Positions 34,260 to 58,788 of a DNA stretch of 64,000 bases are shown here, piece after piece. The notes beneath the pieces were generated by a model. It was not told the DNA's origin. It saw only the letters and a list, made by a program, of their open reading frames with translations, and searched no databases. Numbering within the stretch: the first letter of the stretch is position 1; each line of letters starts with the position of its first letter. The position numbers and the translations under genes were made by a program. Origin of the DNA: Klebsiella grimontii (lineage in GTDB: Bacteria; Pseudomonadota; Gammaproteobacteria; Enterobacterales; Enterobacteriaceae); NCBI RefSeq assembly GCF_900200035.1, contig NZ_FZTC01000015.1, positions 682,001-746,000 of the forward strand. Direction: 5' to 3'.

Positions 34260-34422
34260 GCCTGGCGATGAGCTATCCGGTATCACTCGGCTTCCGGCCG
34301 CACGTTCATGCAATTTAATCATTTTCACCTGCGCAAATGAGATTATTTTTTGCGTCCGGCATCATCCTTTTTATCCGCACTATTTTGCATATTAAGCGTT
34401 TGCAAAAGTTGTGGAGAATAAC

Positions 34423-35115
34423 GTGGCGCAAAAGAGCAAAGATGCAGTATTGGATTATTTCAGGGCGCTGGCAGAGGTTTTTTCTCGGGCAACAGGGCTG
34501 GTGGCAACGGTGATTGATGTGAAAGACAATCGATTGCCTGATTGCTATGGTAGCGGCAATTTCCTGGTCTTACCGCTGATTCAGGGCGATAAGTTATTCG
34601 GCTATATTATATGCGACCATCATAAATCGACCGATAATCATCATCGGGCGGCGGCAATAAGATTACTTAATTTTATCATTAATAATATTTCTGCGGCTGC
34701 AGAGGAAAAAGAAGAGGGCTCGAAAACATCGCTGGAGAAAAGGGGGTTTTATTATTCGCAAAAATCTCCGCATGAAATAAAATTAATATCGGCGCTACGC
34801 TATATTGATGAGAATTTATATGGCGAGTTGTCTCTGGAGTCTGTTGCCGCCCACGTCTGTCTGAGTGCGAATTATTTTAGCCGGTTTTTTAAAAAACGCC
34901 AGGGAGTGAATTTTAAAGTTTGGGTTAATCAGCGAAAAATGCAGCGGGCCGGGGAACTGCTCGCCGATCCGAGGTATTCGATAGATAGCGTAGCGCGTAA
35001 GCTTCAGTTCGCGCAAACCAGCTATTTTTGCCGGGTGTTTCGCGCGGCTCACCGCACCAGCCCGCAACTGTTCCGCGATCGGCGTCTCTCGGCGGCTTCT
35101 CCGCAGGCCGATTAG
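34423..35115 (+). CDS. AraC-family transcriptional regulator with short PocR-like sensor domain
   Basis: About 230 residues. The C-terminal 100 residues are a double helix-turn-helix AraC domain: HEIKLISALRYIDENLYGELSLES, CLSANYFSRFFKKRQGVNFKVWV, then the second HTH DSVARKLQFAQTSYFCRVFRA. The N-terminal part (DYFRALAEVFSRATGLVATVIDVKDN...LVLPLIQGDKLFGYIICDHH) looks like a shortened PocR-type ligand sensor, seen in regulators of B12-dependent catabolism; this is a judgement by eye. A frame opens at GTG 34411, but GGAG six bases before GTG 34423 favours the latter. Neighbours suggest it controls the glutamate-mutase island. Base composition is more AT-rich than the TCA genes before it. Confidence 0.75.
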   Translation: MAQKSKDAVLDYFRALAEVFSRATGLVATVIDVKDNRLPDCYGSGNFLVLPLIQGDKLFGYIICDHHKSTDNHHRAAAIRLLNFIINNISAAAEEKEEGSKTSLEKRGFYYSQKSPHEIKLISALRYIDENLYGELSLESVAAHVCLSANYFSRFFKKRQGVNFKVWVNQRKMQRAGELLADPRYSIDSVARKLQFAQTSYFCRVFRAAHRTSPQLFRDRRLSAASPQAD

Positions 35116-35498
35116 CCGCCGTTTAACCTTAATACAGATTTTTCCTGGAGCGTCCATTATGTGTGACCGATCGCGGAAAATTTTCCATTTATGTTCATCA
35201 GCGTATAATTAAATTTCACCGCCCATCGACTGACTTCGCAAATAAACAAGTTAATATGAAAAAATATTGACAACTTCTTGCCGTTATTTGCATGGCAATC
35301 ACATTGTTTAAATTGTGTTTATTGTAGCGCCTGGGTATCATTGGTTATTATTTGATCGATTATAGTATGCGTTAATCATGGAATAGATCAATGACATCTG
35401 AGGGTAAAATAAAATATAACACACGGGGCTAACCGGATGTCCTTGCGCGCTTTTTTTATCTATTAAACAATTTTTGCACGGCGTAAATGGAAGACGTT
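35116..35498. other. AT-rich regulatory gap between the AraC-type and LysR-type genes
   Basis: About 380 bases with no gene. The sequence is AT-rich with a weak CRP-like half site (GGCAATCACATTG near 35290-35302). No terminator with a T tract is seen after the AraC-type gene. Probably holds the LysR-type promoter. Confidence 0.4.
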
Positions 35499-36401
35499 AT
35501 GAGAGGAAAAATACCCAAAACTGAATTACTGGTGACCTTTGAGGTTGTGGCTCGCCACGAAAGTTATACGCGAGCTGCGGAAGAGTTGGCTTTAACACAA
35601 AGCGCCGTGTTCCGACAAGTCACGGCGCTGGAGGATTTCCTCCATACGTCATTATTTAACCATGCTAAAAAAAGGATTTTTTTAAATGAGGCTGGCAAGC
35701 ATTATTTGACTATCGTTAAGGAAACGCTTAACAAACTGGAGCGTGATACCAATTCGATTATGACATGGCAACCGACGGTGCAGGTTCTTGAGCTGGCCGT
35801 CAACCCTACCTTTAGCACCCACTGGCTGATCCCCAATCTGCGCGAGTTTAATAAATTACATGCGGGCATTATCGTTAATATTCATTCGCTGGCGAATATT
35901 GGCGATTTTCTTAGCCGCGAGTACGATGCCGCCATTATGCGCGAGGATTTTTGCTCGCCGTGGGCGGAGGTTGAGTATCTGTTCGAAGAGGAAATTCTGC
36001 CGGTGTGCGGCTGCGGGCTGCTGCCCGAACCCGGGCAGAAGCTGGCGGTGGAGGAGCTGCTGAGCGAGTTTCCGCTGCTGCATCAAAGCACGCGAATTCA
36101 CGGCTGGCAGGAGTGGTTTGCGCTGTCGAATATCACCAGCCCGCAGATCAACATTGGTCCGCGTTTTGACCTGCTCTCGATGCTGATTGCGGCGGTGCGT
36201 TCGAACCTGGGCGTTGCGTTGCTGCCGCGTTTTGCTATTCAACATGACCTGGATAGCGGCGAGATGGTGATCCCCTGCGATGTGCCGATTCGTACCGGAA
36301 ACCGCTTTATTATGACGTGGCAGGAGGATAAAGCGGAATCCCGGCATCTACAGGTATTCCGCGAGTGGCTGCTGCAAAAATCGGTGGTGTCGGCTGCCTG
36401 A
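35499..36401 (+). CDS. LysR-family transcriptional regulator
   Basis: About 300 residues. N-terminal winged HTH: LLVTFEVVARHESYTRAAEELALTQSAVFRQVTALEDFL near residues 8-46, then RIFLNEAGKHYL; C-terminal periplasmic-binding-protein-like effector domain, resembling the GcvA/PerR/AmpR branch (ELAVNPTFSTHWLIPNLREF...GVALLPRFAI). The frame starts at 35487, but GGAAG five bases before ATG 35499 makes 35499 the better start. It lies ahead of, and on the opposite strand from, the ten-gene glutamate island and may regulate it. Target and ligand are unknown. Confidence 0.82.
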   Translation: MRGKIPKTELLVTFEVVARHESYTRAAEELALTQSAVFRQVTALEDFLHTSLFNHAKKRIFLNEAGKHYLTIVKETLNKLERDTNSIMTWQPTVQVLELAVNPTFSTHWLIPNLREFNKLHAGIIVNIHSLANIGDFLSREYDAAIMREDFCSPWAEVEYLFEEEILPVCGCGLLPEPGQKLAVEELLSEFPLLHQSTRIHGWQEWFALSNITSPQINIGPRFDLLSMLIAAVRSNLGVALLPRFAIQHDLDSGEMVIPCDVPIRTGNRFIMTWQEDKAESRHLQVFREWLLQKSVVSAA

Positions 36402-36427
36402 TGGCGTTTCGCAGAACGCAGTGAACC

Positions 36428-36587
36428 CGTAGCCCGGTCAGCGCAGCGCCACCGGGAAGAAACCGCGCCGAGGTATCAGGCCGGGCACTTTCCCCGGAGG
36501 CGGCGCTGGCGCGCCTGTCCGGGCTACTGTCCCGCAGAACGCTGTGAACCCGTAGCCCGGCTAAGCGCAGCGCGAGCCGGATAAAGC
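36428..36587. repeat. REP/BIME cluster between the LysR gene and the adenosyltransferase gene
   Basis: Alternating REP units: TAGCCCGGTCAGCGCAGCGC...ACCGGGA, CCCCGGAGGCGGCGCTGGCGC...GTCCGGGCTAC, and TAGCCCGGCTAAGCGCAGC...GAGCCGGAT. The order and wording repeat the cluster at 4250-4405 closely. It fills the gap between two convergent genes. Confidence 0.85.
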
Positions 36588-37189
36588 TACCAGTCAATTC
36601 CTACCTGCGCCTGAATGCCCTTGTCAAAGGCATGCTTCACCGGGCGCAGCTCACTGACCGTATCGGCAAGCTCAAGCAATCGGGCGTGGCAGCCGCGGCC
36701 GGTGACAATCACGTTCTGCCCGGGCGGACGATTGACAATAGCGGCAATCACTTCCTGAGTATCCAGATAGCGATACGCCAGCATATAGGTGAGTTCATCC
36801 AGCACCACCAGATCGTAGCCCGGGTCGGCCAGCATCCGCTTGCTCTCATGCCATACGGCCGACGCCGCCTCAATATCCGCCTCCCGGTTTTGCGTTTCCC
36901 AGGTAAAACCGGTACCCATGATGTGAAACTCAACGCCGAGCGGTTGCAGAGTATTGTATTCACCGTTATCCCACTGGCCTTTGATGTACTGCGCGACGCC
37001 GACGGTTTTACCATGCCCGACGGCGCGCGTTGCGGTGCCAAAGGCGGCAGTGGATTTGCCTTTACCGTTGCCGGTAAAGACGATCAGAATACCTCTTTGC
37101 TCTGTAGCCGCCGCCACGCGGGTATCAACCTGCGTTTTCAGCTTTTGCTGGCGCTGACGGTGGCGGTCGGGATTTCCACGCGCGTGCAT
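36587..37189 (-). CDS. Corrinoid adenosyltransferase (CobA/BtuR type)
   Basis: 200 residues (E. coli BtuR 196). P-loop GNGKGKSTAAFGTATRA (about 40-56), then QYIKGQWDNGEYNTL, DLVVLDELTYMLAYRYL and VIVTGRGCHARLLELADTVSELRPVKHAFDKGIQAQVGIDW-type C-terminus seen in the BtuR family. It adenosylates cob(I)alamin to coenzyme B12. It is the last gene of the minus-strand island, nine bases after the fumarase gene, so it most likely supplies AdoCbl to the glutamate mutase encoded at the head of the operon. A housekeeping btuR is expected elsewhere in the genome, making this a second, dedicated copy (inference). Confidence 0.9.
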   Translation of the reverse strand: MHARGNPDRHRQRQQKLKTQVDTRVAAATEQRGILIVFTGNGKGKSTAAFGTATRAVGHGKTVGVAQYIKGQWDNGEYNTLQPLGVEFHIMGTGFTWETQNREADIEAASAVWHESKRMLADPGYDLVVLDELTYMLAYRYLDTQEVIAAIVNRPPGQNVIVTGRGCHARLLELADTVSELRPVKHAFDKGIQAQVGIDW

Positions 37190-37198
37190 AAACCCTCC

Positions 37199-38851
37199 TT
37201 AATGCCCCGCCGGGCAGGTTGCGCAGCGATGCTGATGCTCGAACTGGCTGAAGAAGTTATTGCCTTTATCGTCGACCAGCACAAACGCCGGCAGGTTATC
37301 GACTTCCATCATCCACACCGCTTCCATCCCCAGCTCCGGATACTCAAGGCAGCGTAAACTTTTCACATACTGCTGCGCCAGCAGGGCCGCCGCGCCGCCA
37401 ATACTGCCGAGATTAAAGCCGCCGTGTTTATGGCAGGCGTCGGTTACCTGCTGGCTGCGGTTGCCTTTGGAAAGCATGATGAGACTACCGCCTGCCGCCT
37501 GGAAAGCATCGACGTACCCATCCATGCGTCCGCCAGTGGTAGGGCCGAGTGAGCCGCAGGCCAGATTATTCGGCGTTTTCGCCGGGCCTGCGTAGTAAAC
37601 GATATGATTGCGCATGTACTCCGGCATCGGTTCGCCGTTATCGAGGCGCTCTTTGAGTTTGGCATGGGCGATGTCGCGGGCGACGACGATCGGACCGCTC
37701 AGCGACAGTCGGGTGCCCACGGGCAGCGTTGACATCTCGCGGAGAATTTCGCGCAGCGGCCGGTTCAGATCGAGCTGAACGCTTTGAGCCCCGTTTTCGA
37801 TACGCTGAGAATCAGGGATAAACTTGCCCGGATTATGCTCCAGCTTCTCCAGCCAGATGCCGTGTTTGTTGATTTTGGCTTTGATGTTCCGGTCGGCGGA
37901 GCAGGAAAGGGCCATTGCGATCGGGCAGGAGCCACCGTGCCGCGGCAGGCGAATCACGCGAATATCATGGGCGAAGTATTTGCCGCCAAACTGCGCGCCA
38001 ATGCCGAACTCGCGGCTGGCTTTGAGCAGCGCCGCTTCCAGCGACGTATCGCGAAACGCCTGCCCCAGTTCGTTTCCGCTGGTCGGCAGGTTGTCGTAAT
38101 ATTTTGTCGAAGCCAGTTTGGCAACCTTCAACGCCTGATCGGCCGAGAGACCGCCCACAACGAAGGCGATGTGGTACGGCGGACAGGCGGCGGTGCCCAG
38201 CGCTTTCATCTTTTCAGTCAGAAAGGCGGTGAGTTTTTCCGGCTGCAGGATAGATTTTGTTTCCTGAAATAGCGCGGCTTTGTTCGCCGAACCGCCGCCT
38301 TTATTGACGAAAAGGAAGCGGTATTCGCTCCCCGGCGCGGCGCTGATGTCGATCTGCGCGGGCAGGTTAGTCTGCGTGTTGACCTCAGTGTACATATCAA
38401 GGGGGGCATTTTGCGAATAGCGTAAATTGTTTTCCTGAAAGGTGGTGTAGATGCCCTGGCTCAGGGCCTCAGCGTCGTTGCCGCCGGTCCAGACGTTCTG
38501 GCCTTTGCTCGCGACGATGGTGGCGGTCCCGGTATCCTGGCAGTTTGGCAGCACGCCTTTTGCTGAGACTTCGGCGTTGCGCAGCAGCTGTAGCGCAACG
38601 TATTTATCGTTGCTGCTGGCCTGCGGGTCGTGCAGGATGCTGGCGATCTGCTTTAAATGCCCGGCGCGCAGGAAAAATGAAGCCTCATAAAATGCCTGCT
38701 GAGCCAGCAATGTTAACGCTTCCGGCGCAACCTTGATAACCTCTTCCCCATCTAACTCTGTCACTTTAACATGTTGATTTGTTAGTAATTCATATTCGGT
38801 ATTATCGTTACTCTGAACAAAAAGTTCCTGCCAGACAAAGGGTTTCGACAT
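37199..38851 (-). CDS. fumD: Class I fumarase, probable mesaconase (FumD-like)
   Basis: About 550 residues (E. coli FumA/FumB 548). Clear class I features: [57 protein letters not shown] with the Fe-S-ligand cysteines, [12 protein letters not shown], and [30 protein letters not shown]. Class I fumarases hydrate mesaconate as well as fumarate; the enzyme encoded with the methylaspartate genes in E. coli O157:H7 (FumD) is a mesaconase. Its position here supports the same role: mesaconate to (S)-citramalate. The frame opens with GTG at 38863, but ATG 38851 lies behind GTGAGAAGT and matches MSKPF. Differences from FumA at the C-terminus ([12 protein letters not shown]) are unremarkable. Confidence 0.88.
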
Positions 38852-38862
38852 TTTACTTCTCA

Positions 38863-39864
38863 CTATTTCGCTATAAAGAGATTGGCCTGCGTCGCATGCG
38901 CGACATACTCGATGGTCTGCTGGGCGCGGACGCTGTTACCAGCTGCATCCAGCGGAGGAGAGTAGACGGCGATAGCGTATTGCCCGGGAACGACGGCGAC
39001 CATTCCGCCGGCGACCCCCGATTTCGCCGGGATACCGACGGTGTAGAGCCATTTGCCGCTGCCGTCGTACAGTCCGGCAATCGCCATTTCCGCCAGCACC
39101 TGCGGGACGTAGCGTTCATTAAGCAACTGCTTGCCGTTGAACGGCGATTTGCCCTTATTGGCGAGTACGGCCCCCATTTTGGCGAGCTGCTCGACGGTGA
39201 CATCCACCGAACACTGGCGGGTATAGATTTCGACGGCTTCCTGAGGGTCGCCATAAAAGCTGTGGTATGACTTCATCAGCATCGCCAGCGCCTGGTTATG
39301 CTGGTTGGTCTCCATTTCGGATTGAAATACCGGCTCATTAACGCGCAGCGAGCTATCGGCCCAGGCGTTAAGGTTGTTGAGAATGTTGTTCCAGCGTTCG
39401 GTTTTGTCTTTCGCCGCAATCAGGCTCACGGTACTCATGGCGCCGGCGTTAACCAACGGGTTCTCCGGCGCGCCTTGCGTGAGCTCCACGGCTAAGCCGG
39501 AGTTAAAGGGCAGGCCGGTGGCATTGGCGCCAAGTTTATCCAGCACCTCCTGCGGCCCGCGCTGTTCCATCGCCAGCGCCAGGGTGAAGACTTTGCTCAG
39601 GGATTCCATCGGAAAGGCTTTTTTCACGTCGCCGGTCTGGTAAATTTTGCCTTCGACCGTGGCGAGCGTAATGGCGAAATTATTCGGGCTATAGCTCGCC
39701 AGAGCAGGGATATAGTCGGCGACTTTACCATCGTGGTTGCTCTTATATTTCTGATGCGCCTGCTCGATAATGCCGGCGTAGTCCGGCTCGCTTTGCGCCT
39801 GCGCGGCGGCGCCAAACAGTAAGCTGGCGGTTAAGATGCAGGCGCCGAGAAATTTTACGTTCAT
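38863..39864 (-). CDS. Exported glutaminase (GlsA family with signal peptide)
   Basis: 333 residues. A signal peptide ([20 protein letters not shown] then AQAQS) with a likely AQA cleavage site precedes a serine-type glutaminase domain; cytoplasmic bacterial glutaminases such as YbaS are about 310 residues and lack it. Active-site motifs are [17 protein letters not shown] (the Ser-x-x-Lys pair), [10 protein letters not shown], the N-x-x-Q/E region around [15 protein letters not shown], Tyr in MKSYHSFYG and the [10 protein letters not shown] turn near the C-terminus. It would deamidate glutamine to glutamate in the periplasm, feeding the glutamate symporter gene just upstream. Its stop lies 11 bases ahead of the fumarase ATG. 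Confidence 0.88.
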
Positions 39865-39938
39865 GGTGTGTCCTGTTGGGATGATTGGAGGGAACCGGGC
39901 CGGACGTATCCGGCCTGGGGCTCATAGCCATGTTGCTG

Positions 39939-41246
39939 TCAGGACATCGCCACTTCGGACGTTTCGCTGGCAGGGCGATCCTGCTCCGGTTTTTTGACCG
40001 GGGCGGTGCCGCGGCAGCCTTCACCGTAATGCTCGCCTTCCCAGCGGCCAACGATGGCGGCGCCCATGGCGTTACTCATCACGTTGGTGGCGGAGCGTCC
40101 CATATCGAGGAACGGATCGACGCCCATCAGCAAAATCAGGCCCGCTTCCGGAATGTTGAACTGGTTCAGCGTCGCGGCGATAACCACCATTGACGCGCGC
40201 GGCACGCCCGCCATTCCTTTCGAGGTCAGCATCAGGATCAGCAGCATGGTGATCTGCTCGCCCATGCTAAGATGGACGTTGCAGGCCTGGGCGATAAACA
40301 CCGTGGCGAACGAGCAGTAGGCCATGGAGCCCACCAGGTTAAAGGAGTAACCGATGGGGAGGACGAAGCTGGCGATTTTGGAAGAGACGCCAAATTTTTC
40401 CAGCTTATCGAGGGTGCCTGGGAAGGCGGCTTCTGAGCTGGATGTGGTGAAAGCCAGCAGCGCGGGCTCGAAGATCGCTTTGGTCAGACGGCTGATGCAC
40501 GGGCCGACAATCACCGTCGACAGGCCAATCAGGATCGCCCACAGCATGCCCAGCGTCAGGTAGAACTCGCCCATAAAGATCCCGGCGCTGACCATCACAC
40601 CCAGACCGCGTTCGGCAATCAGCCCGGAGATGGCGGCGAAAACGGTCAACGGCGCGAACAGCATGACGTATCCCGTTAGCTTCAGCATCACGTGCACCAG
40701 TGAATCAAGCACCTTCACGATGGGCTCGGCTTTTTCGCCGATCGCCGCCAGGCTGCAGCCGAGGAAAATGGAGAACACCACGATTTGCAGAATTTCGTTG
40801 CGCGCCATCGCATCAACGATGCTGGTTGGCACCGCGTGCGAGATAAACACTTTCAGGGTGAAGGGTTCGGACTGAACGGCGGCCACGGCTCCGGCATCGT
40901 GGGGGACGAAGTTGATGCCCGCGCCTGGCTGGAACAGATTGACGATCACCAGACCCAGCGCAATCGACAGCAGCGAGGCGCAAATAAACAGGAAAAAGGT
41001 TTTAGAGAATATGCGCCCGAGCGTTTTCGCATCGCCCATTTTGGCGATACCGACCACCAGCGTTGATATTACCAGCGGGGCGATAATCATTTTTACCATG
41101 CGTAAAAATATAGTGGTAAAGATGGAGATATCCTGCGCATAGGATTTTGCTGTATCTGCTGATGCCATATTATTAATGATCACCCCGGCAATCATGCCGA
41201 GTATCAGGCCTAATATGATCATTTTGGTTAAACTTATTTTTTTCAT
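39939..41246 (-). CDS. Dicarboxylate/glutamate:cation symporter (DAACS family, GltP-like)
   Basis: 435 residues with eight membrane helices and two re-entrant loops expected for the family. Signatures are LRMVKMIIAPLVISTLVVGIA, the serine-rich loop AFTTSSSEAAFPGTLDKLEKFGV near 285-307, PIGYSFNLVGSMAYCSFATVFIAQA, and MLTSKGMAGVPRASMVVIAATL with GVDPFLDMGRSATNVMSNA. It would import glutamate (or aspartate) with protons or sodium. Lying between the glutaminase gene and the glutamate-mutase genes, glutamate is the probable substrate. The C-terminal tail (EQDRPASETSEVAMS) is short and polar. Confidence 0.9.
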   Translation of the reverse strand: MKKISLTKMIILGLILGMIAGVIINNMASADTAKSYAQDISIFTTIFLRMVKMIIAPLVISTLVVGIAKMGDAKTLGRIFSKTFFLFICASLLSIALGLVIVNLFQPGAGINFVPHDAGAVAAVQSEPFTLKVFISHAVPTSIVDAMARNEILQIVVFSIFLGCSLAAIGEKAEPIVKVLDSLVHVMLKLTGYVMLFAPLTVFAAISGLIAERGLGVMVSAGIFMGEFYLTLGMLWAILIGLSTVIVGPCISRLTKAIFEPALLAFTTSSSEAAFPGTLDKLEKFGVSSKIASFVLPIGYSFNLVGSMAYCSFATVFIAQACNVHLSMGEQITMLLILMLTSKGMAGVPRASMVVIAATLNQFNIPEAGLILLMGVDPFLDMGRSATNVMSNAMGAAIVGRWEGEHYGEGCRGTAPVKKPEQDRPASETSEVAMS

Positions 41247-41415
41247 ATTTACTCCATCGGAACAGGGTTAGTCGGTGAAGTGGTGTAGGGCGGCGTACGC
41301 CCGCGCCAGGTAGCAGCGCAGACGTACGCCTGTGGTGACCAACCGCATAAATTGTCTGGAATACAGTGATACAGCGAAATCCTGTACCCCAATGGATGTT
41401 GTTGTATTTTAGAAA

Positions 41416-41733
41416 TTACAGGTCGAACTCAATACTTAATAACGGCGCATGCTGCTGAGCGCCATAAACATCATTGTCTCCGACGTTGCCGGAAATAATA
41501 GTCCGTGGCATGACGATTTTTACCGCGTTGGCCGGATCGAACCAGACAATACGATGAATAAAATCAGGCTTCACGTTATATAAACCGGCAATGAGCTGCG
41601 GAGTTAATAGTTCAGAACGTTTTACCCGCTGATAATCCTCCCGGGTTTTAAATAAAATATCTAAAACCAGTTCGTACGGTCCGGCGTTTTTGGAACGGAT
41701 CACCTGCGCCAGTGAGCATAGGGATTGTTTCAT
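41416..41733 (-). CDS. DUF4387-family protein
   Basis: 105 residues, beginning MKQSLCSLAQVIRSKNAGPYELVLDILF; I recognise the RSKNAGPYELTLD-type segment as the mark of DUF4387, whose function is unknown. Acidic and aromatic residues follow (IVWFDPANAVKIVMPR, GNVGDNDVYGAQQHAPLL). It overlaps the upstream AtuA-like gene by 4 bases; the two families regularly occur together or fused, so they probably form one enzyme or complex. Its setting suggests a step of glutamate/methylaspartate breakdown, which is inference. Confidence 0.78.
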   Translation of the reverse strand: MKQSLCSLAQVIRSKNAGPYELVLDILFKTREDYQRVKRSELLTPQLIAGLYNVKPDFIHRIVWFDPANAVKIVMPRTIISGNVGDNDVYGAQQHAPLLSIEFDL

Positions 41734-43100
41734 GCCTGAACTCCTTCTGGCGTCACCTGTTCGATATGGAAGTCAAAGCGCAGCGCGTCGCTGGCTTCAA
41801 TCAGGTGATAAATTGAGAACTCGTATACCGGGCCGCTCTGAATATCGGAAGGCGAGAACGGGAAGGCGAGGTTACCCGCGGTCGCAATGCGGTTTTCATA
41901 GCCGTAGTGCAGCAGGGTAGAGCGCACCAACGAGCAGACGCTATTGGCGATATCCTGGGTCGGCGCAACGACATCGAGCAAAATGCCCAGTTCATGCCCG
42001 GCGGTTTTCATCGGCTCGTGATTGCCCATCACGCCGTTTTTTCCATACAGATGGAAGGTCATGCGGATGCTGTCGTCAGCGAGCGAGAGGTTGCGCTTAA
42101 CGCTGGCCTGTACCTCTTCGAGAATCGTGTCGATCCCGGCAATCATGATCGGATCGCGCGTTCCGGCAATGGTCAGGCAGCGGAAGCCGACCTGGCGTGC
42201 GCCTTCCAGCTTCAGCGCGTACGGCGTCGTTTCATGACGAGAACCGCTGACGTACACTTCGCCCTCGTTGACGGCTGTGAAGGTGCATCCTTTCAGGTTC
42301 AGCACGCCGCCCGGACCGGGCAGGAAATACGGATCGGACTTCTCGTACAGCGTATGCGCCGCCGCAGACGTTTCGGTAAACTTACGCTTTGGATTGAACG
42401 CTTTCAGCGTAAAGCCGTTGTCGTCGATAATCCCCATAGCGCAATCGGATCCGGAGCCCGGCGTGGCGGCTATGGCCGCGCACTCGAGAATTTTGCCGCA
42501 GTGCAGGGCCAGACCTTCATCAAAGCCCTGCATGATCGGCAGCGCCGCGAAGCAGGCCGGATCGTACGCCCGCCCGCCCAGCACTACCTGGGCGCCGGCC
42601 TTCAGCGCCCGCTGGAAGGGTTCGATCCCCATCTGGGCGACGATATAGGTGCTCTCTTCAATGGCCTCATGAGTCAGCTCCGGCACAAAATCCAGGGCAG
42701 TGATTTTGCCGTTATCCAGCGCCTGATGAACGATCGCTTTATCGACATCAGACGGAATCAACGCCAGGGAGAATGACAGATGTTCTTCCTGCGCAATCTC
42801 ATGGATTATCTGCCGACACCACTCCAGATGCGGCGCGGCGCCGGATCCTCCGGCGGTGCCGATCACCACCGGGATATTGTTTTTCACGCCGGCCACGATC
42901 ATATAGCGCAGATCGCGTTTCACCCCGGCCCGGTCGGTAAAGGGTTTGCCCGCCCCCAGGTAGTGGGGGCCAGGATCGGATGAACCGGCGTCAACGGCAA
43001 TCAGATCCGGCGACTCTTCCATGGCTTTACGAAAGCTCTCTTCCGGGAAGCCATAGCCGAGGATAGCCGTGGGCGATAAGATCTTAAAGGTACGAGCCAT
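41730..43100 (-). CDS. AtuA-like (DUF1446) protein
   Basis: 456 residues. Features are ILSPTAILGYGFPEESF near the start, DAGSSDPGPHYLGAGKPF, VVIGTAGGSGAAPHLEW, and TPGSGSDCAMGIIDDNGFTL: the glycine-rich and acidic motifs of the DUF1446/AtuA family, named from acyclic terpene utilisation but of unproved activity. It starts three bases after the methylaspartate ammonia-lyase stop and overlaps the DUF4387 gene, so it is translated with the pathway enzymes. It may serve the step after mesaconate hydration, or handle a side product; no direct evidence distinguishes these. Confidence 0.8.
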   Translation of the reverse strand: MARTFKILSPTAILGYGFPEESFRKAMEESPDLIAVDAGSSDPGPHYLGAGKPFTDRAGVKRDLRYMIVAGVKNNIPVVIGTAGGSGAAPHLEWCRQIIHEIAQEEHLSFSLALIPSDVDKAIVHQALDNGKITALDFVPELTHEAIEESTYIVAQMGIEPFQRALKAGAQVVLGGRAYDPACFAALPIMQGFDEGLALHCGKILECAAIAATPGSGSDCAMGIIDDNGFTLKAFNPKRKFTETSAAAHTLYEKSDPYFLPGPGGVLNLKGCTFTAVNEGEVYVSGSRHETTPYALKLEGARQVGFRCLTIAGTRDPIMIAGIDTILEEVQASVKRNLSLADDSIRMTFHLYGKNGVMGNHEPMKTAGHELGILLDVVAPTQDIANSVCSLVRSTLLHYGYENRIATAGNLAFPFSPSDIQSGPVYEFSIYHLIEASDALRFDFHIEQVTPEGVQA

Positions 43101-43103
43101 CTC

Positions 43104-44345
43104 TTAATCCTTAGCCTGCAACAGCGCGATGGTGCGGTTCATTTCGTTAAACACGATGTTGAGACCTTCGTCGAAGCCCATACCTGGCTTGATCAGCATG
43201 CGCATCGGACGCGCGGCCAGCGCGACGTGAACGCAGGTGCGGGCGCTGATCTCGGTTTCGTTACAGGTACCGCCCTGATAGGCTTCCATCGCGTGTTTGT
43301 TGCAGTACAGCACCGCGTCCACGATGTTATGAATGCCGCCGAGATCCGGGGTTTTGATCTGCACCATGTGGCAGCTGCCGGCATCGGTAAAGTCAACGAT
43401 GTCCTGGTAGGTGTTGCACCACTCGTCGGCGACAATTTTTACGCCGGAACCGAGGCGGGTCAGCTCTTTGGTAATGGCGGTCAGCATGCGGATCTGGTCC
43501 GGTTTGTTACCCGCATCCACCGGGCCTTCTATATACAGCGGTAGACCCTGCGCCTCTTTCTCCAGGCTGGCGATATAGTCGGCGCAGCGAACCGGGTCCA
43601 TATCGAAAATCAGGCCGATGGTGCCGTATACGTCGATATGCAGCGTCGGGCGATAGCGGGGGCTGGCGCGCAGGCTCAGGATGCGATCGGACAGCCAGCG
43701 CACGTACTCACGCAGCTTTTCGCCTTTCAGGCCCAGCTTCTCTTCGACGTTGTTGATCAGCGCATGCGGCAGGACGTCAACGCCCTTGAGGATCATTTTG
43801 TCCACGGCGATGTAGCGATCGTCGCCGCTCTGACCAAATAACGGAATCGCTTCCGGGATGCAGGGCAGCTGCCATTCGTCGCAAACCACCTCCGCCTTCA
43901 GGCGACCGCTGGCCAGCGCGGTCGCATCGAGCAGCGCCTGGGAAAGACCATAGCGGACGGCAGTATGCAGCAGATGGCCGTCGATGCGCAGCTTGTCGAA
44001 GAAGCGGGCGTTCGGCAGGAAGGTATCGACATCGCGGCCTTCCAGCAGCGGTTTAATATGATCGTTGAGGAACGGGATAAAATTTTCCGCGAGGAACAGC
44101 GGGTCGCGGCCGCCCGCGCCCGAGTACTGTACGGCGGCACAGTCGCCGACCGCCACCGCGCCGTTTTCCAGAATCAGCTGGACGGACACGCATTCACCCG
44201 CCTGGCGTACCGAGGTGAAGCCTGGCGTTACCGGAGCACCGGTATAAATGAATCCATCATGACCCGCGCCGTTTTTAATCGCCTGCTGATCGTCAAAATA
44301 GAATGAAGAGTAGCCAGCGGTGAAAAGGGCCTGTTTAATTTTCAT
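43104..44345 (-). CDS. Methylaspartate ammonia-lyase (3-methylaspartase)
   Basis: 413 residues (Citrobacter amalonaticus enzyme 413), enolase superfamily. All residues known for the Citrobacter enzyme fall at the same numbers: catalytic His194 (DVLPHALINN) and Lys331 (MVQIKTPDLGG), and Mg2+ ligands Asp238 (LHIDVYG), Glu273 (YIEGPVD) and Asp307 (IVADEWC). It eliminates ammonia from (2S,3S)-3-methylaspartate to give mesaconate. The ATG shares one base with the glmE stop region, and the AtuA-like gene begins three bases downstream. Confidence 0.97.
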   Translation of the reverse strand: MKIKQALFTAGYSSFYFDDQQAIKNGAGHDGFIYTGAPVTPGFTSVRQAGECVSVQLILENGAVAVGDCAAVQYSGAGGRDPLFLAENFIPFLNDHIKPLLEGRDVDTFLPNARFFDKLRIDGHLLHTAVRYGLSQALLDATALASGRLKAEVVCDEWQLPCIPEAIPLFGQSGDDRYIAVDKMILKGVDVLPHALINNVEEKLGLKGEKLREYVRWLSDRILSLRASPRYRPTLHIDVYGTIGLIFDMDPVRCADYIASLEKEAQGLPLYIEGPVDAGNKPDQIRMLTAITKELTRLGSGVKIVADEWCNTYQDIVDFTDAGSCHMVQIKTPDLGGIHNIVDAVLYCNKHAMEAYQGGTCNETEISARTCVHVALAARPMRMLIKPGMGFDEGLNIVFNEMNRTIALLQAKD

Positions 44346-45790
44346 TATGGTCTTCCTATTAATTTACTGTGGGATACCGCGTTAATGTCATCAACAACCA
44401 TCTGGAATGAGGGTTTGCGTCCTTCAAATTGCGCGCGTTCGGCGACGTAATCGTGGTGCAGGGCGAGGATGTCTTTCGGCAGCGGTACCGCGCCGGCTTC
44501 AAGCACGCGGATAGCGCCGGAATTGTCGCGAACCGGCAGAATTTTGCCGGCGTTGCAGGAAGCCGGAGCGAAAGGCACGTCCAGAACGCCCGCCTCGAAG
44601 GCCAGCACCGTACCGCGGGCGATATCGCCGTTGCCCAGCTCGAACACTTTCTTCAGTACTGCGCGGACTTCGCTTTTAATCAGTTCCACTTCTTGATCAA
44701 CGGCGGCGCACGGCGGGAACTTCTGATCGCTGACCATATTGAGCATCTGGCGGGAGGCCTTCAGCCCCTGCGCGTTGGCTGCCGCGGTGGGAATACCGAA
44801 CGCTTCGTGCGGGCTCTTGGTGATTACTTTAGTGGCGCCGGACATCCCGGCTACCGCCGCGCCCCAGGAGATAATGGCGAACGCTTTCGATTCATCTTCC
44901 GGAAAGCCGCCCATCCACTGGTGGAAGACGGTACTCAGCTCATAATCGTCGAAACCGTAATTGCCGAAGTACTCGTGGGAGAGCTCGCGAAGAGATCGAA
45001 TGGCTGCGATGTCCTGGGTCAGGCTGCCGACCTGGCCGTAGCCGACGGTGATCGACTTGACGCCCTGTTCCAGCGCCAGCAGGCCTTCGATAATCGCCAC
45101 CGCGTGGGACATAAACGGCGGGATCAGGGTTCCGGTCAGCGGGCCGAACGGTTCGCGGTTAATACGGATACCGTGCTCTTCATACAGGCCCATCAGGCGG
45201 TCGCAGTACTGCCAGTCGCGAATCGACTTCTCCAGAGTGACGCGCTTGGCGTAGGGAATGTTGTAGGAGATACCGCCGCCTTCGTAGCTGGTAAAGCCGC
45301 TGGCCATGGAGATTTCCGCCAGCAGGCGCGCGTCCGGCGTACCGTGGCGTACCTGGACCGGTTTTTCCAGCGCTTCGGTCATCCGCCGGCATTCGGCGAC
45401 GCCGTGGTTAACCACCGGCAGGCCGTTCAGTTTGGAGGTCCCCGCCTCGATGGATTTCTGGATCCCGACCGCCGCTTCTTCGTAGCGGTTGAGGCGGGTA
45501 TAGGCATCGATGGTGCTCGGCAGCAGATCGCACTCTTCCTGCAGGGTTTTGAGCAGCGCGATGTGTTCATCCATCAGCGCCACGCCCGCGCGCGGCTGGC
45601 TCAGGGTTTTACCTTCCTGGTCGGCCTTCAGCAGAGCGTGAGAAAAGCGTTTTTTCTCAGGAATGGTTTGCTGGTACTTCACGCCATCTTCGAAGTGCTC
45701 AACGTCCTTGCCGGTATGCCAGGTCTGCAATACCTGATGCCGCTCGGTCATGAATTCGTCATGGGTTAATTTTTTATTTCGAAGTTCCAT
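44345..45790 (-). CDS. glmE: Glutamate mutase (methylaspartate mutase) E subunit
   Basis: 481 residues (Clostridium cochlearium GlmE 483). TIM-barrel catalytic subunit with SQPRAGVALMDEH (Arg67), RHGTPDARLLAEI (Arg148), FTSYEGGGISYNIPYAK and REPFGPLTGTLIPP; Arg67 and Arg148 lie within a residue of the arginine-claw positions known from the clostridial enzyme that hold the substrate carboxylates. With GlmS and AdoCbl it rearranges L-glutamate to 3-methylaspartate through a radical. Sixteen bases after glmL. Confidence 0.95.
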   Translation of the reverse strand: MELRNKKLTHDEFMTERHQVLQTWHTGKDVEHFEDGVKYQQTIPEKKRFSHALLKADQEGKTLSQPRAGVALMDEHIALLKTLQEECDLLPSTIDAYTRLNRYEEAAVGIQKSIEAGTSKLNGLPVVNHGVAECRRMTEALEKPVQVRHGTPDARLLAEISMASGFTSYEGGGISYNIPYAKRVTLEKSIRDWQYCDRLMGLYEEHGIRINREPFGPLTGTLIPPFMSHAVAIIEGLLALEQGVKSITVGYGQVGSLTQDIAAIRSLRELSHEYFGNYGFDDYELSTVFHQWMGGFPEDESKAFAIISWGAAVAGMSGATKVITKSPHEAFGIPTAAANAQGLKASRQMLNMVSDQKFPPCAAVDQEVELIKSEVRAVLKKVFELGNGDIARGTVLAFEAGVLDVPFAPASCNAGKILPVRDNSGAIRVLEAGAVPLPKDILALHHDYVAERAQFEGRKPSFQMVVDDINAVSHSKLIGRP

Positions 45791-45806
45791 TCGTAGCTGC
45801 CTTCAT

Positions 45807-47195
45807 TTATAGGGTTAAACAGTGAATGCTGGTGCGAGCGGCGAGCTCGGGGTAGAGCCTGGCAACGTTTGCCAGCAGCGGAAGCAGGCCTTTTGCATCG
45901 CGGTAATAGTCAAACCGGGTCGGTAAGAGAATGCGTCGGCCGTCGTCATCCAGTTCGCGGTATTTCAGCCAGCTCTGGATGTCGAAGCGGCTGGCGCGGG
46001 AGAGCCATCCGCCGGAACCCACGACTTTGCGCACCGTGGTCAGATCGCGGCCCATCTGTAAATCGACGTTGCCCACGCAGGTGCACACCTGTTTTTTGGT
46101 GCCCGCGTGGCGTTCGCTGGCGTAGCCAACGCACAGCCCGGCCAGCACGGTGTCGAAATATTTTTCTTCCTCGTTAACCGGCAGATAATCCGGCTGCGCG
46201 ACCAGATGGCGCAGGTAGCGGTAAAAGGCCTCCTGACGCTGCGGCTGGTGGGCAAACACCGCATTCACCAGCTCCCGGGTACTTTCACCGACCACGACCG
46301 CCGAAACGCGCATGCCGAGATCGCCTTCCACCGTCCGTTTCACAAACGGTTCCGGCACCCCGTGCAGAACGGTATCCGGGGAGAGCGTGTTGGCGCAGGC
46401 GGAGTAGACGTCGGTGGTGGCCCCGCCCATGTCAATCAGCATGAACTCTTTCCATGCGCTGTCGTAATGGCTGATGGTTTTCACCAGCTCGTAGACGGTC
46501 CACGGCGTCGGCATCGGTTCTTCGCCGGTTTCAGCGACGATAACGTCCAGCCCTTTGCCTTTGACGATACGGGATAAGAAGACATCGCAAATCGCCTTGC
46601 GGGCAGCGTACGGGTTCGGGTGATCGAGGTCGGGCAGAATATTGTCTACCGTGGTCAACTCTTTGTGGCCGAGGATGGCCTGAACCTCGTCCTGAATATC
46701 GCGGTTTCCGGCATAGATAATGGCGCAGTCAAGCTTTGACTCCGCCAGCGCGTGGGCGTTGGCCAGGCCGTAGCTCTCCTCGCCGCCGTCGGTGCCGCCG
46801 GTAAACAGCAGGATATCCGGCGGCGTGGCTTCCAGTTCCTGGATATCGTGACGGTTGAGCTTGTAGGCGTAGTATTGGGCGATTTTGGCCCCCGCCGAGT
46901 GGGCAGTGACTTTCGCTGATTCCAGGGTAATAGACGGCACCAGCCCCATCGCCGCGACGGCAAGGCCGCCTTTTGCCGATGAAGAGTATTTCAGCGTCAC
47001 GTCACCGCGGTTCAGCAGCGGGCGCGCATCGGCAACGTTGAGCACCTGGTTCAGGCTGGCAAAAAAGCCTTCCGCCAGGTGATGGGTAGTGGTCGGGGTC
47101 AGAACGTGGTTTACCAGCGTCAGCTCATCCCCCTCCTGTGCGAAGAGGGCCGCTTTGGTCCACGTCGAGCCGATATCGACAGAGACGGTTTGCAT
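45807..47195 (-). CDS. glmL: GlmL/MutL-family glutamate-mutase-associated ATPase
   Basis: About 462 residues, actin/Hsp70-like ATPase fold. Phosphate-binding loops are SVDIGSTWTKAALF at the N-terminus and LIDMGGATTDVYS near 260; TGGTDGGEES and VGSGGWLSR follow. GlmL is thought to reactivate the mutase by exchanging damaged cobalamin. The frame runs upstream to 47216, but ATG 47195 overlaps the glmS stop (ATGA) and gives the conserved [11 protein letters not shown] start. Not related to the mismatch-repair protein also called MutL. Confidence 0.92.
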   Translation of the reverse strand: MQTVSVDIGSTWTKAALFAQEGDELTLVNHVLTPTTTHHLAEGFFASLNQVLNVADARPLLNRGDVTLKYSSSAKGGLAVAAMGLVPSITLESAKVTAHSAGAKIAQYYAYKLNRHDIQELEATPPDILLFTGGTDGGEESYGLANAHALAESKLDCAIIYAGNRDIQDEVQAILGHKELTTVDNILPDLDHPNPYAARKAICDVFLSRIVKGKGLDVIVAETGEEPMPTPWTVYELVKTISHYDSAWKEFMLIDMGGATTDVYSACANTLSPDTVLHGVPEPFVKRTVEGDLGMRVSAVVVGESTRELVNAVFAHQPQRQEAFYRYLRHLVAQPDYLPVNEEEKYFDTVLAGLCVGYASERHAGTKKQVCTCVGNVDLQMGRDLTTVRKVVGSGGWLSRASRFDIQSWLKYRELDDDGRRILLPTRFDYYRDAKGLLPLLANVARLYPELAARTSIHCLTL

Positions 47196-47644
47196 CAGAT
47201 AGCCTCTTCCAGACACTGCTGTTCAACGCCGTGGCGCTGGTTGATATCGTTCGCCATCAGCTGGCAGACGTCTTCCAGATCGTGGCTTGGGGCAAAGACG
47301 CGATTGAAACCCATCTCTTTGAATTTGGCCTCGACGTCGGCAAAATCATGTTTACCAACCACCAGGTTGCCGCCAACGTAAAGGAGGATGTCGCCAATAC
47401 CGCGCTCGATGCAGCGTTCGCGCAGCCCCAGGCAGTCGATGTCGCCGTGGCCGTAAATAGACGACACGACGATGGCATCCGCGCCGGTTTCGATGGCGGC
47501 ATCAATATATTCATCCTGACTGACCATCACGCCCAGATTGATTACGCGAAAATCATGGGCAGTAAAAACGCGGTCCAGGACTTTGTTGCCTACTGCATGG
47601 CAGTCAGCACCAATGACGCCAATAACAAGTGTTGATTTCTTCAT
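47195..47644 (-). CDS. glmS: Glutamate mutase S (B12-binding) subunit
   Basis: 149 residues (clostridial GlmS 137). The cobalamin motif Asp14-Cys-His16-Ala-Val-Gly19 gives the cobalt-ligating His at the classical position, followed by [20 protein letters not shown] and [16 protein letters not shown] of the B12 fold. It carries AdoCbl for GlmE. It is the first gene of the minus-strand island; an AAGAGGATTACCC-like stretch precedes the ATG on the minus strand. It is unrelated to the glucosamine synthase of the same symbol. Confidence 0.94.
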
Positions 47645-48859
47645 GGGTAATCCTCTGTAAGGCTAATGGTAAAAAATAAAAACGACTTTCTAATATTTGC
47701 AGCGTTGATGATGGCCGCCTGTTAATAGGGCTGGAGTGTCTGTGGTTCGCAGAGGGGAAGCAATTGATCTATTTTCAGAATATCTTTCAAAAAACTCTCG
47801 TTTTTGATTTTGCGTGAAAAACTTCTTTTATATCATGATGTTATATTTTTATTTATTGTCTGGATTTATTTCTGCTTGAATCCTGGTAATAAATATAATG
47901 CGATGTTTGTGAGCAAGGTCTTATTTTATATTTCGTCTTGATTTTGCCTTCGCTAATAAGCGATGAATACACTTCTTTAAATTTTTCTGTGAGCGTAGTA
48001 ACGGAATTTATGTGCTGATTTTTATATGTGGCGCGGGCAATTTGTTAGATTAAAGATATAAAATGGTGATTTGTGCAATTTATATTTCATTTTTGTTGAT
48101 GAAAGGGGGAGGGCCGGCAAGCGTCACGTGGCGAGGATAAAAGCGCGATGTAGATGATACCGCGAAAGAGAAGGACGCTTTGCATCACCAAAAGAAAAAA
48201 AAGGCGCTGCGTTTACTTGATAATGAGATAGTTACGCAATTGTGTTAATTTTAAGTAAATGCAATGATAAATCTAATAAGAAAAAAATTTATGGCGTTAA
48301 CTTGATAAAAAAAATCTGTGAGCTACGCGGCATTATCGACTGATAACCACATTTACGCGATCAGCGTTCAGCTCATTAAATTCCCCTCAGCGACGAAATA
48401 AATGGACTATCATTTTCAGTAACTGATGATACTCTTGAAAAACATATTGTTAACTTGGTGTTTACCTGTGAGGTACACGATATACATAATTAACATTTAA
48501 AATGAAAATTGATTTAAATCAATGTTTAAAACTTGGAAAAGACCGCGAAATGGAGTTAAATTGTCGCGGATCAAATTGACCGAAATCTGGTATTTTCGCT
48601 AAAAATTGATCGCTGTCGAAAACTGCAAATTTATCACAATAAAAACCTATTTATTGTAAGGGTTTTGCAGCGTAATATAATCACGGGATCAATTTGGGTG
48701 TTTTGTTAACATGTTTGTAACTTTTCAGTACCTCCGCATTCTTGAAAGAGAAAACGGGCGTAGTGAGAAGAAGCAAATAAATTTGTATTGGGGCATGCGT
48801 GTGACCCTTTCTAACGGGGTTCACTCTCGGAGTCTTCATGCGATGAGCAAGGAGTCATG
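47645..48859. other. 1.2-kb AT-rich gap between glmS and cydA
   Basis: No credible gene on either strand. It must hold the promoter of the glm island (left part) and the long cydAB control region (right part). The region is AT-rich except a short G+C-rich patch at about 48103-48140. I looked for a cobalamin riboswitch B12 box on the minus strand ahead of glmS and saw none. An ArcA-like and an FNR-like site lie at 48486-48522. Confidence 0.6.
48486..48522. promoter_or_regulatory. ArcA-like and FNR sites upstream of cydA
   Basis: TTGATTTAAATCAA (48509-48522) is a perfect match to the FNR palindrome TTGAT-N4-ATCAA. Just left, ATAATTAACA (48486-48495) reads TGTTAATTAT on the other strand, the ArcA core. 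The E. coli cydAB operon is activated by ArcA and repressed by FNR from such sites. The distance to cydA (about 340 bases) implies a long leader. Confidence 0.75.
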
Positions 48860-56539: not shown

Positions 56540-57088
<549 letters not shown>

Positions 57089-57097
57089 GAGAATTGC

Positions 57098-57883
57098 ATG
57101 AGCAGTAACTTCAGACATCATCTGTTGAGTCTGTCGTTACTGGTTGGCATAGCGGCCCCCTGGGCCGCTTTTGCTCAGGCGCCAATCAGTAGTGTCGGCT
57201 CAGGCTCGGTCGAAGACCGCGTCACTCAACTCGAGCGTATTTCCAATGCGCACAGCCAGCTTTTAACCCAACTCCAGCAGCAACTCTCCGATAATCAGTC
57301 CGATATTGATTCCCTGCGCGGTCAAATTCAGGAAAGCCAGTATCAGCTGAATCAGGTTGTTGAGCGCCAGAAGCAGATCCTGCTGCAGATCGATGGTCTG
57401 AGCAGCGGCGGCGGCGCAACGGGTGCGCAAACCCAGACCTCAGCGGGCGATCAGGGGGCTGCGGCTAGCGCGCCGGCGGCTTCGTCAGGCGCTCCGGCGT
57501 CAACCGGCGATGCCAACACCGATTACAACGCGGCTATTGCGCTGGTGAAGGATCCTTCCCGCCAGGACGACGCCATGGCGGCTTTCCAGAACTTCGTCAA
57601 AAAGTATCCTGATTCAACCTACCAGCCGAACGCCAACTACTGGCTCGGTCAGCTGAATTACAACAAGGGTAAAAAAGACGATGCGGCGTACTATTTCGCT
57701 TCCGTGGTGAAAAACTACCCTAAATCCCCGAAGGCGCCCGATGCGATGTTTAAAGTCGGCGTTATCATGCAGGACAAAGGCGATACCGCAAAAGCGAAGG
57801 CGGTTTACCAGCAGGTGGTCAGTAAATTTCCTGGCACCGATGGGGCCAAACAAGCGCAAAAACGCCTTAACGCACTCGGATGA
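57098..57883 (+). CDS. cpoB: CpoB (YbgF), cell-division coordinator
   Basis: 261 residues (E. coli 263). Signal peptide to about residue 26 (AAPWAAFAQA), an N-terminal coiled coil that trimerises (VEDRVTQLERISNAHSQLLTQ to about residue 100), a Gln/Ala/Ser-rich linker, then TPR repeats (DYNAAIALVKDPSRQDDAM, PDSTYQPNANYWLGQL, APDAMFKVGVIM). It links peptidoglycan synthesis by PBP1b to Tol-driven outer-membrane constriction. Nine bases after pal. Confidence 0.95.
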   Translation: MSSNFRHHLLSLSLLVGIAAPWAAFAQAPISSVGSGSVEDRVTQLERISNAHSQLLTQLQQQLSDNQSDIDSLRGQIQESQYQLNQVVERQKQILLQIDGLSSGGGATGAQTQTSAGDQGAAASAPAASSGAPASTGDANTDYNAAIALVKDPSRQDDAMAAFQNFVKKYPDSTYQPNANYWLGQLNYNKGKKDDAAYYFASVVKNYPKSPKAPDAMFKVGVIMQDKGDTAKAKAVYQQVVSKFPGTDGAKQAQKRLNALG

Positions 57884-58045: not shown

Positions 58046-58121
58046 GGGTCGTTAGCTCAGTTGGTAGAGCAGTTGACTTTTAATCAATTGGTCGCAGGTT
58101 CGAATCCTGCACGACCCACCA
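58046..58121 (+). tRNA. tRNA-Lys (anticodon TTT), copy 1
   Basis: 76 bases with encoded CCA: acceptor GGGTCGT pairs with ACGACCC; D-arm GCTCAGTTGGTAGAGC; anticodon arm TTGACTTTTAATCAA; T-arm CAGGTTCGAATCCTG. First gene of the lys-val-lys-lys-lys cluster. Confidence 0.98.
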
Positions 58122-58226: not shown

Positions 58227-58302
58227 GGGTCGTTAGCTCAGTTGGTAGAGCAGTTGACTTTTAATCAATTGGTCGCAGGTTCGAATCCTGCACGACCCAC
58301 CA
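58227..58302 (+). tRNA. tRNA-Lys (anticodon TTT), copy 2
   Basis: Identical 76-base sequence to copy 1; begins three bases after the tRNA-Val gene, so both come from one precursor. Confidence 0.98.
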
Positions 58303-58340
58303 ATTTAACATCGAACTCAGATGTTAAGCGTGAAGGATAA

Positions 58341-58400
58341 CGTTGCGCCAGCAACGGCCCGTAGGGCGAGCGAAAGCGAGTCATCCTGCACGACCCACCA
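58341..58400 (+). repeat. REP-like unit ending in an orphan tRNA-Lys 3' tail, copy A
   Basis: GTTGCGCCAGCAACGGCCCG, TAGGGCGAGCGAAAGCGAGTC, then ATCCTGCACGACCCACCA, which are the last 18 bases of the tRNA-Lys gene. No 5' half of a tRNA precedes it. The same arrangement recurs at 58731-58788. Confidence 0.8.
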
Positions 58401-58635: not shown

Positions 58636-58664
58636 GTAAAAAAGCGCCCTAAAGGCGCTTTTTT
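58636..58664 (+). terminator. Terminator of the tRNA cluster
   Basis: A-rich run, AGCGCC, loop CTAAA, GGCGCT, six T residues. Ends the tRNA transcript. A degenerate second copy (GGCGCTGGCGGCGCTTTTTT) stands at about 58799-58817. Confidence 0.88.
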
Positions 58665-58730
58665 GCTATCTGCGATATCCAAGATTCGAACCTGCCGCAG
58701 GTTTGAGTCGAACGAAGAGAGACAACGGAG

Positions 58731-58788
58731 CCGCCTGCGGCGACGGCCCGAAGGGCGAGCGAAGCGAGTCATCCTGCACGACCCACCA
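58731..58788 (+). repeat. REP-like unit ending in an orphan tRNA-Lys 3' tail, copy B
   Basis: GCCTGCGGCGACGGCCCG, AAGGGCGAGCGAAGCGAGTC and then the 18-base tRNA-Lys tail ATCCTGCACGACCCACCA, followed by AATGTAAAAA as after the real tRNA copy 4. Just upstream (58683-58708) GATTCGAACCTGC faces GCAGGTTTGAGTC, an inverted pair made from the tRNA T-arm. Confidence 0.8.

Follow-up and report, generated by a model that had tools for sequence, protein, structure and literature searches.

In the window, the 64,000-nucleotide stretch of Klebsiella grimontii DNA analysed here (genome of 6.17 Mb), ten minus-strand open reading frames lie at 36587..47644 between sucD and cydA in the window ORF list. The locus raises the questions of whether these genes encode a whole route for the breakdown of glutamine and glutamate, where such a route would end, and whether the genes reached this site recently.

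Gene content of the sucD-cydA interval

Family-model and Pfam searches matched all ten reading frames to curated families (Table 1). Every enzyme family named in a first-pass annotation of the sequence was present by these matches, and the families found make a glutamate-degrading route, as proposed there, the best reading of the locus. The annotation had missed a predicted citramalate lyase pair, and LysR and AraC genes that fall within the same variable segment.

Table 1 Features of the locus and its surroundings (positions are those of the window)
Feature	Position	Strand	Basis or remark
AraC-type regulator, weak GAF match, possible segment member	34411..35115	+	ORF and Pfam search
LysR-type regulator, likely controls cluster	35487..36401	+	ORF and Pfam search
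Corrinoid adenosyltransferase cobA/cobO, one of two genome copies	36587..37189	-	TIGR00708, 237 bits
fumD, class I fumarase, expected mesaconase	37199..38851	-	NF011921, 1210 bits
glsA, glutaminase, likely signal peptide, optional module	38863..39864	-	family match, motifs
SDF-family symporter, probably for glutamate	39939..41246	-	PF00375
cmlB, DUF4387, small subunit of predicted citramalate lyase	41416..41733	-	101/104 identical to 9ERQ chain B
cmlA, AtuA/DUF1446, large subunit of predicted citramalate lyase	41730..43100	-	444/456 identical to 9ERQ chain A
mal, methylaspartate ammonia-lyase	43104..44345	-	TIGR01502, 549 bits; 1KKO match
glmE, glutamate mutase epsilon subunit	44345..45790	-	TIGR01503, 839 bits; full-length match to 6H9E
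glmL, mutase accessory protein	45807..47195	-	NF040745, 508 bits; E. coli copy length
glmS, cobalamin-binding subunit	47195..47644	-	TIGR01501, 238 bits; DxHxxG at residue 14
Conserved box TGAAAATAGATCAATTGC, putative LysR site	47760..47777	-	18 bp, 133 bp upstream of glmS
CRP-like half-conserved candidate site TAAGA-N6-TCACA	47908..47923	-	279 bp upstream of glmS
Variable segment, approximate ends	34270..48208		presence/absence in 20 Klebsiella genomes

The genes had been described as joined by overlaps or short gaps. This holds for the ten minus-strand genes at most junctions, which from cobA to glmS measure 9, -1, 74, 169, -4, 3, -1, 16 and -22 bp, but not for the gaps of 74 and 169 bp (2 of the 9 junctions), which could hold promoters. 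The fumD and glmL reading frames open at GTG codons (38863 and 47216, respectively); by comparison of length with the E. coli copies, the true starts are probably internal ATGs near 38851 and 47195, and the overlap of glmL with glmS would therefore be 1 bp. We infer that the ten genes are read as a single transcript.

The ammonia-lyase residues quoted in the annotation (H194, D238, E273, D307 and K331) were all found, within an ungapped 413-residue match to PDB 1KKO, and we take them, as it did, to be the catalytic residues; the cobalamin motif that it reported for GlmS was likewise located (Table 1). The fumD product scored above the cut-off of NF011921 (1060 bits) and below those of NF011920 and NF011919 (FumA), in agreement with the proposal of a class I fumarase suited to act as mesaconase, a role that is predicted here; it is 86% identical to the copy in E. 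coli LR-28. The hydrophobic N-terminus of GlsA, which ends in AQA, resembles a Sec signal by eye, and an SLSK motif is present at 88. The clusters of K. spallanzanii, S. enterica arizonae and E. coli LR-28 gave no glutaminase match, and the glutaminase is an optional part of the cluster. The symporter scored below the model cut-offs of both GltP and DctA, giving no assignment by score; its substrate is probably glutamate, because its motif LDMGR is nearer to that of GltP (LDMAR) than to that of DctA (MSEAR). The Asp of the LDMGR/LDMAR motif has a recognised role in symporters of this kind. Elsewhere, the genome encodes a second CobA (68% identical, on contig C6), CbiD of cobalamin synthesis and a second glutaminase (38% identical), and its CitF gene lies on a contig other than that of the cluster.

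Taken together, the locus very probably constitutes a complete catabolic cluster for glutamine and glutamate by the methylaspartate pathway, with activities, regulation and physiological use deduced from the sequence. Secreted glutaminase would convert glutamine to glutamate outside the cytoplasm, and the SDF symporter would bring the glutamate in. Adenosylcobalamin-dependent GlmES, helped by GlmL and supplied with its cofactor by the extra CobA, would then rearrange glutamate to 3-methylaspartate, from which the ammonia-lyase would release ammonia and mesaconate. Hydration of mesaconate by FumD would give (S)-citramalate, to be split into pyruvate and acetate by CmlA and CmlB.

The predicted citramalate-cleaving step

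The last of these steps was assigned to the DUF4387 and AtuA/DUF1446 genes that the first-pass annotation had left unnamed. Their products, CmlB and CmlA, matched one solved complex only, PDB 9ERQ/9EVF (E ≤ 0.001; an unrelated chain also appeared in the CmlA structure search, at E 0.6), whose chains carry the depositors' names citramalate lyase subunits cmlA and cmlB. Each of the two proteins is 97% identical to its counterpart (456 and 104 residues), so that adjacent genes of the window encode near-identical copies of the two parts of the complex, and 9ERQ chain A is itself identical to the protein encoded at this locus in K. michiganensis (456/456 residues). No paper on the CmlAB enzyme or behind 9ERQ/9EVF was found in the open-access literature. 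CmlAB is thus predicted, by the depositors' naming, to cleave citramalate, so that the route would reach pyruvate and acetate. The earlier claim of a whole route stands because of this match, whereas the enzyme list given with it stops at mesaconase and citramalate.

In order to compare the endings of the pathway, profiles built from the loci were applied to the best 80 of at least 563 confirmed GlmE loci from a profile search of genome contigs. An ammonia-lyase gene was present in 80/80 of these best loci, CmlA with CmlB in 50, CitE with CitF in 18, and a class III CoA-transferase with a CitE homologue after the ammonia-lyase in six (L123, L127, L131, L137, L143 and L149; two of the six CoA-transferases were confirmed by Pfam). 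Three more of the best 80 had CmlA without CmlB: the examined stretches of L138 and L158 end 706 and 1507 bases past the ammonia-lyase match, whereas L135 has 4740 bases of room, so that CmlB was really not found there. A further three had no citramalate-cleaving module; two of these stretches end 2 and 677 bases past the ammonia-lyase (L132 and L142), and in L136, with sufficient room and with mesaconase and CitG genes present, no lyase was found. CmlA and CitE occurred together in none of the best 80 loci, and in all 53 CmlA loci among them the CmlA match starts 7-154 bases past that of the ammonia-lyase. CmlAB therefore appears to fill the slot of the other citramalate-cleaving modules, an argument that is independent of biochemistry. 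The split between CmlAB and CitEF follows phylogeny in part; the 18 CitE+CitF loci bear names of what we take to be Bacillota groups. The CmlA match is split in L106 and L150, each time into two parts, possibly by frameshifts or errors of assembly.

Two other readings of the pathway were weighed against these data. Excretion of citramalate as the end product, in place of pyruvate and acetate, could not be excluded by Kronen and Berg (2015; PMC4682846), who, in the text of that paper, detected no citramalate lyase activity in E. coli ATCC 700728. Their citramalate assays, however, used cells grown on citrate, acetate or propionate, and the same strain showed neither anoxic growth on glutamate nor ammonia-lyase activity in glutamate cultures (PMC4682846), so the E. 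coli cluster may simply have been unexpressed. Moreover, mal is followed by cmlAB both in the window and in E. coli LR-28, as it is in the 50 loci counted above, and the pair matches a deposited lyase; we regard an ending in excretion as highly improbable. Barely less improbable is a role in which ammonia release and acid resistance, and not carbon or energy, are the main benefit: the glutaminase and the ammonia-lyase each release ammonia, and the text of PMC4682846 mentions glutaminase in acid resistance, but the mutase, mesaconase and lyase would not be needed for this purpose, and otherwise similar clusters lack the glutaminase. Catabolism to pyruvate and acetate remains the preferred reading. 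With the deposited CmlAB structure assigned to this cluster, the pathway has no missing step on paper, and a route by which glutamine and glutamate yield acetate is predicted for several enterobacterial genera; together with pyruvate formate-lyase, such a route would be redox-balanced. The assignment also suggests how to name proteins recorded as 'AtuA family' or 'DUF4387' when they are encoded after a methylaspartate ammonia-lyase gene.

DUF4387 occurred in 25 of 398 genomes of a phylum sample, and wide stretches (17-20 kb) were examined for 14 of the 24 loci outside our own genome. One of these 14 (L040) has the full cluster, and GlmE gave no match in the other 13 wide non-Klebsiella stretches; the CmlAB pair is therefore also found in other settings. 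A Pfam search of ten chosen neighbour proteins, eight of them near distant CmlAB pairs, revealed no common theme. One distant pair has a CoA-transferase III gene and two CitE-like stretches in its vicinity, with no glutamate mutase match (L043:14466-19831), and another is followed by an aconitase-family gene (L052:8016-11641). Feeder genes vary in the enterobacteria, with a secreted glutaminase in many and histidine-degradation genes beside the cluster in E. coli LR-28. A general scheme, which we put forward tentatively and at slightly less than even odds, would have at least three interchangeable endings of the glutamate-mutase route (CmlAB, CitE+CitF, and class III CoA-transferase with a CitE homologue), optional feeders on an enterobacterial CmlAB core, and CmlAB-like pairs without a mutase nearby acting as lyases of related hydroxy acids.

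Distribution, age and control of the locus

Among 20 Klebsiella genomes, DUF4387 was found in seven, including our own, and the cluster adjoins cydA in all seven. In the remaining 13, no cluster gene was matched between sucD and cydA, and the matches to these two genes lie 791-841 bp apart in nine genomes and 1274-6345 bp apart in four. These empty sites match the window beside sucD in 12/13 genomes (up to about 99 bp) and before cydA in 13/13 (the last 370-650 bp or so). Because the match is confined to the two ends, the variable segment can be placed approximately as in Table 1, and it includes the AraC and LysR genes. The AraC gene is 65-76% identical among six Klebsiella relatives, as against 88-100% for the other cluster genes, and it had no match in the E. 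coli LR-28 locus. In a genus mate (G016, L038:15245-17355) a stretch of about 1.2 kb, with an ORF that by eye resembles a transposase, interrupts the LysR gene. The window cluster was matched in 1089 of 5426 E. coli genomes, and E. coli cmlA in 1081. Beyond LysR, the E. coli LR-28 locus continues with histidine-utilisation genes, namely hutI, hutG and one for an ammonia-lyase of the HAL/PAL/TAL family (L002:96-3978); this last gene is present in 142 of the 5426 genomes, the adjacency being seen in LR-28.

The first-pass annotation had called the cluster inserted. Its position between sucD and cydA stands, whereas recent gain is weakened by the cydA site shared by four genera and by the main genus groups that recur in the cydA tree. 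Recent acquisition of the cluster as a foreign island seems unlikely, although there are several points in its favour: presence in only seven of the 20 Klebsiella genomes, 13 empty sites in which no remnants were detected, and no cydA match in the examined stretches of the Lelliottia, Enterobacter, Yersinia and Morganella loci, so that the site varies. Third-codon GC is also lower in cmlB (0.48) and in araC (0.50; outside the ten) than in the flanks (0.65-0.77), but nine of the ten cluster genes (0.62-0.74) overlap the flanks, which is not the composition expected of a recent island. The nearest tRNA was found at 58046. Records of Klebsiella, Salmonella, Citrobacter and Escherichia alike place the cluster beside cydA, and FastTree trees (18 rows) of six cluster genes and of cydA, the only flank gene used, have four groupings in common: Klebsiella, Salmonella, E. 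coli with E. whittamii, and the Pseudescherichia pair; they differ in deeper branching, in the Citrobacter rows and in the order inside Klebsiella (placements of K. spallanzanii and K. oxytoca). Third-position identity at conserved codons was 0.71-0.91 by gene between the window and K. michiganensis, which makes the host a near relative of K. michiganensis and probably a separate species within the K. oxytoca group. Relative to E. coli it was 0.39-0.58 for cluster genes and 0.62 for cydA, a difference that can be counted for a recent island; as the cluster diverges more than cydA, however, it does not look younger than cydA. On these comparisons we favour an old locus, retained in some lineages and lost from others, over a recent insertion, and exchange between genera by homologous recombination may have taken place.

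The LysR protein, which shares 84% identity with its E. coli counterpart at the corresponding position, probably controls this locus through the conserved box upstream of glmS, which it may bind. TGAAAATAGATCAATTGC was identical in 22 of 76 upstream regions, including those of the window and E. coli, at -119 to -135 in 21 regions and at -241 in one, while 40 letter shuffles of each region gave best matches with 3-5 mismatches in these 22. TGAAAATAGATCA shows the T-N11-A form that we take to be typical of LysR sites. All 22 loci with the identical box carry a LysR gene; five Yersinia regions differ at three positions with LysR present, and three Morganella regions have six mismatches (no match) and no LysR match. 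Against a strict link, the Budvicia locus L105 (two mismatches) and the locus L116 (three) have a box-like string and no LysR match in the examined stretch. In beta-proteobacterial loci whose LysR match is at 47-51%, the nearest string differs from the box at 5-7 positions, within the range of the shuffles.

The pattern TNNGAN6TCACA of the CRP-like candidate occurs in 18 of 25 enterobacterial upstream regions chosen for that look, and the full CRP consensus allowing one mismatch was not found in the window. A scan for sigma-70 promoters and terminators yielded site numbers no higher than those of shuffled sequence (12 versus 11.1 on average, and 19 versus 18.1, respectively). A perfect FNR-type site at 48509-48522 was considered as a cluster signal and assigned to cydA, since its cydA-adjoining stretch is common to the empty sites. 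Rfam matches at gathering scores included no riboswitch in the cluster; outside it they comprised two RtT RNAs (58234-58400 and 58663-58788) within a tRNA-Lys/Val cluster and a CpoB/ybgF thermometer (56989-57127).

Comparison with known systems

The locus is a well-preserved copy of a known cluster of gut bacteria. It was reported by Kronen and Berg (2015; PMC4682846) from E. coli O157:H7 and further Enterobacteriaceae, K. oxytoca among them, and the same gene set is present in the window, which bears out the earlier remark that a related set with FumD exists in E. coli O157:H7. The legend of their Fig. 5 gives GltP, FumD, CobA, a LysR-family regulator, GlsA and DUF1446 (PMC4682846). Their FumD from E. 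coli O157:H7 was measured as a mesaconase that prefers this reaction to that with fumarate; according to the text of the paper, no condition expressing the E. coli cluster was found and the fate of citramalate in enterobacteria was left open (PMC4682846). DUF1446 has no assigned role there and DUF4387 is absent from the main text (PMC4682846), whereas in the window the two correspond to CmlAB. No substantial difference was seen between the window pair and CmlA and CmlB of 9ERQ/9EVF.

Clostridial methylaspartate clusters have the GlmS-GlmL-GlmE-ammonia-lyase core in common with the window. They cleave citramalate by a CitDEF-type lyase (CitE+CitF in 18 loci among the best 80), in contrast to CmlAB in the window, and their mesaconase consists of two separate subunits, unlike FumD (PMC4682846). 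The haloarchaeal methylaspartate cycle differs in activating mesaconate to mesaconyl-CoA (PMC4682846), whereas family searches found no CoA-transferase among the ten genes of the window.
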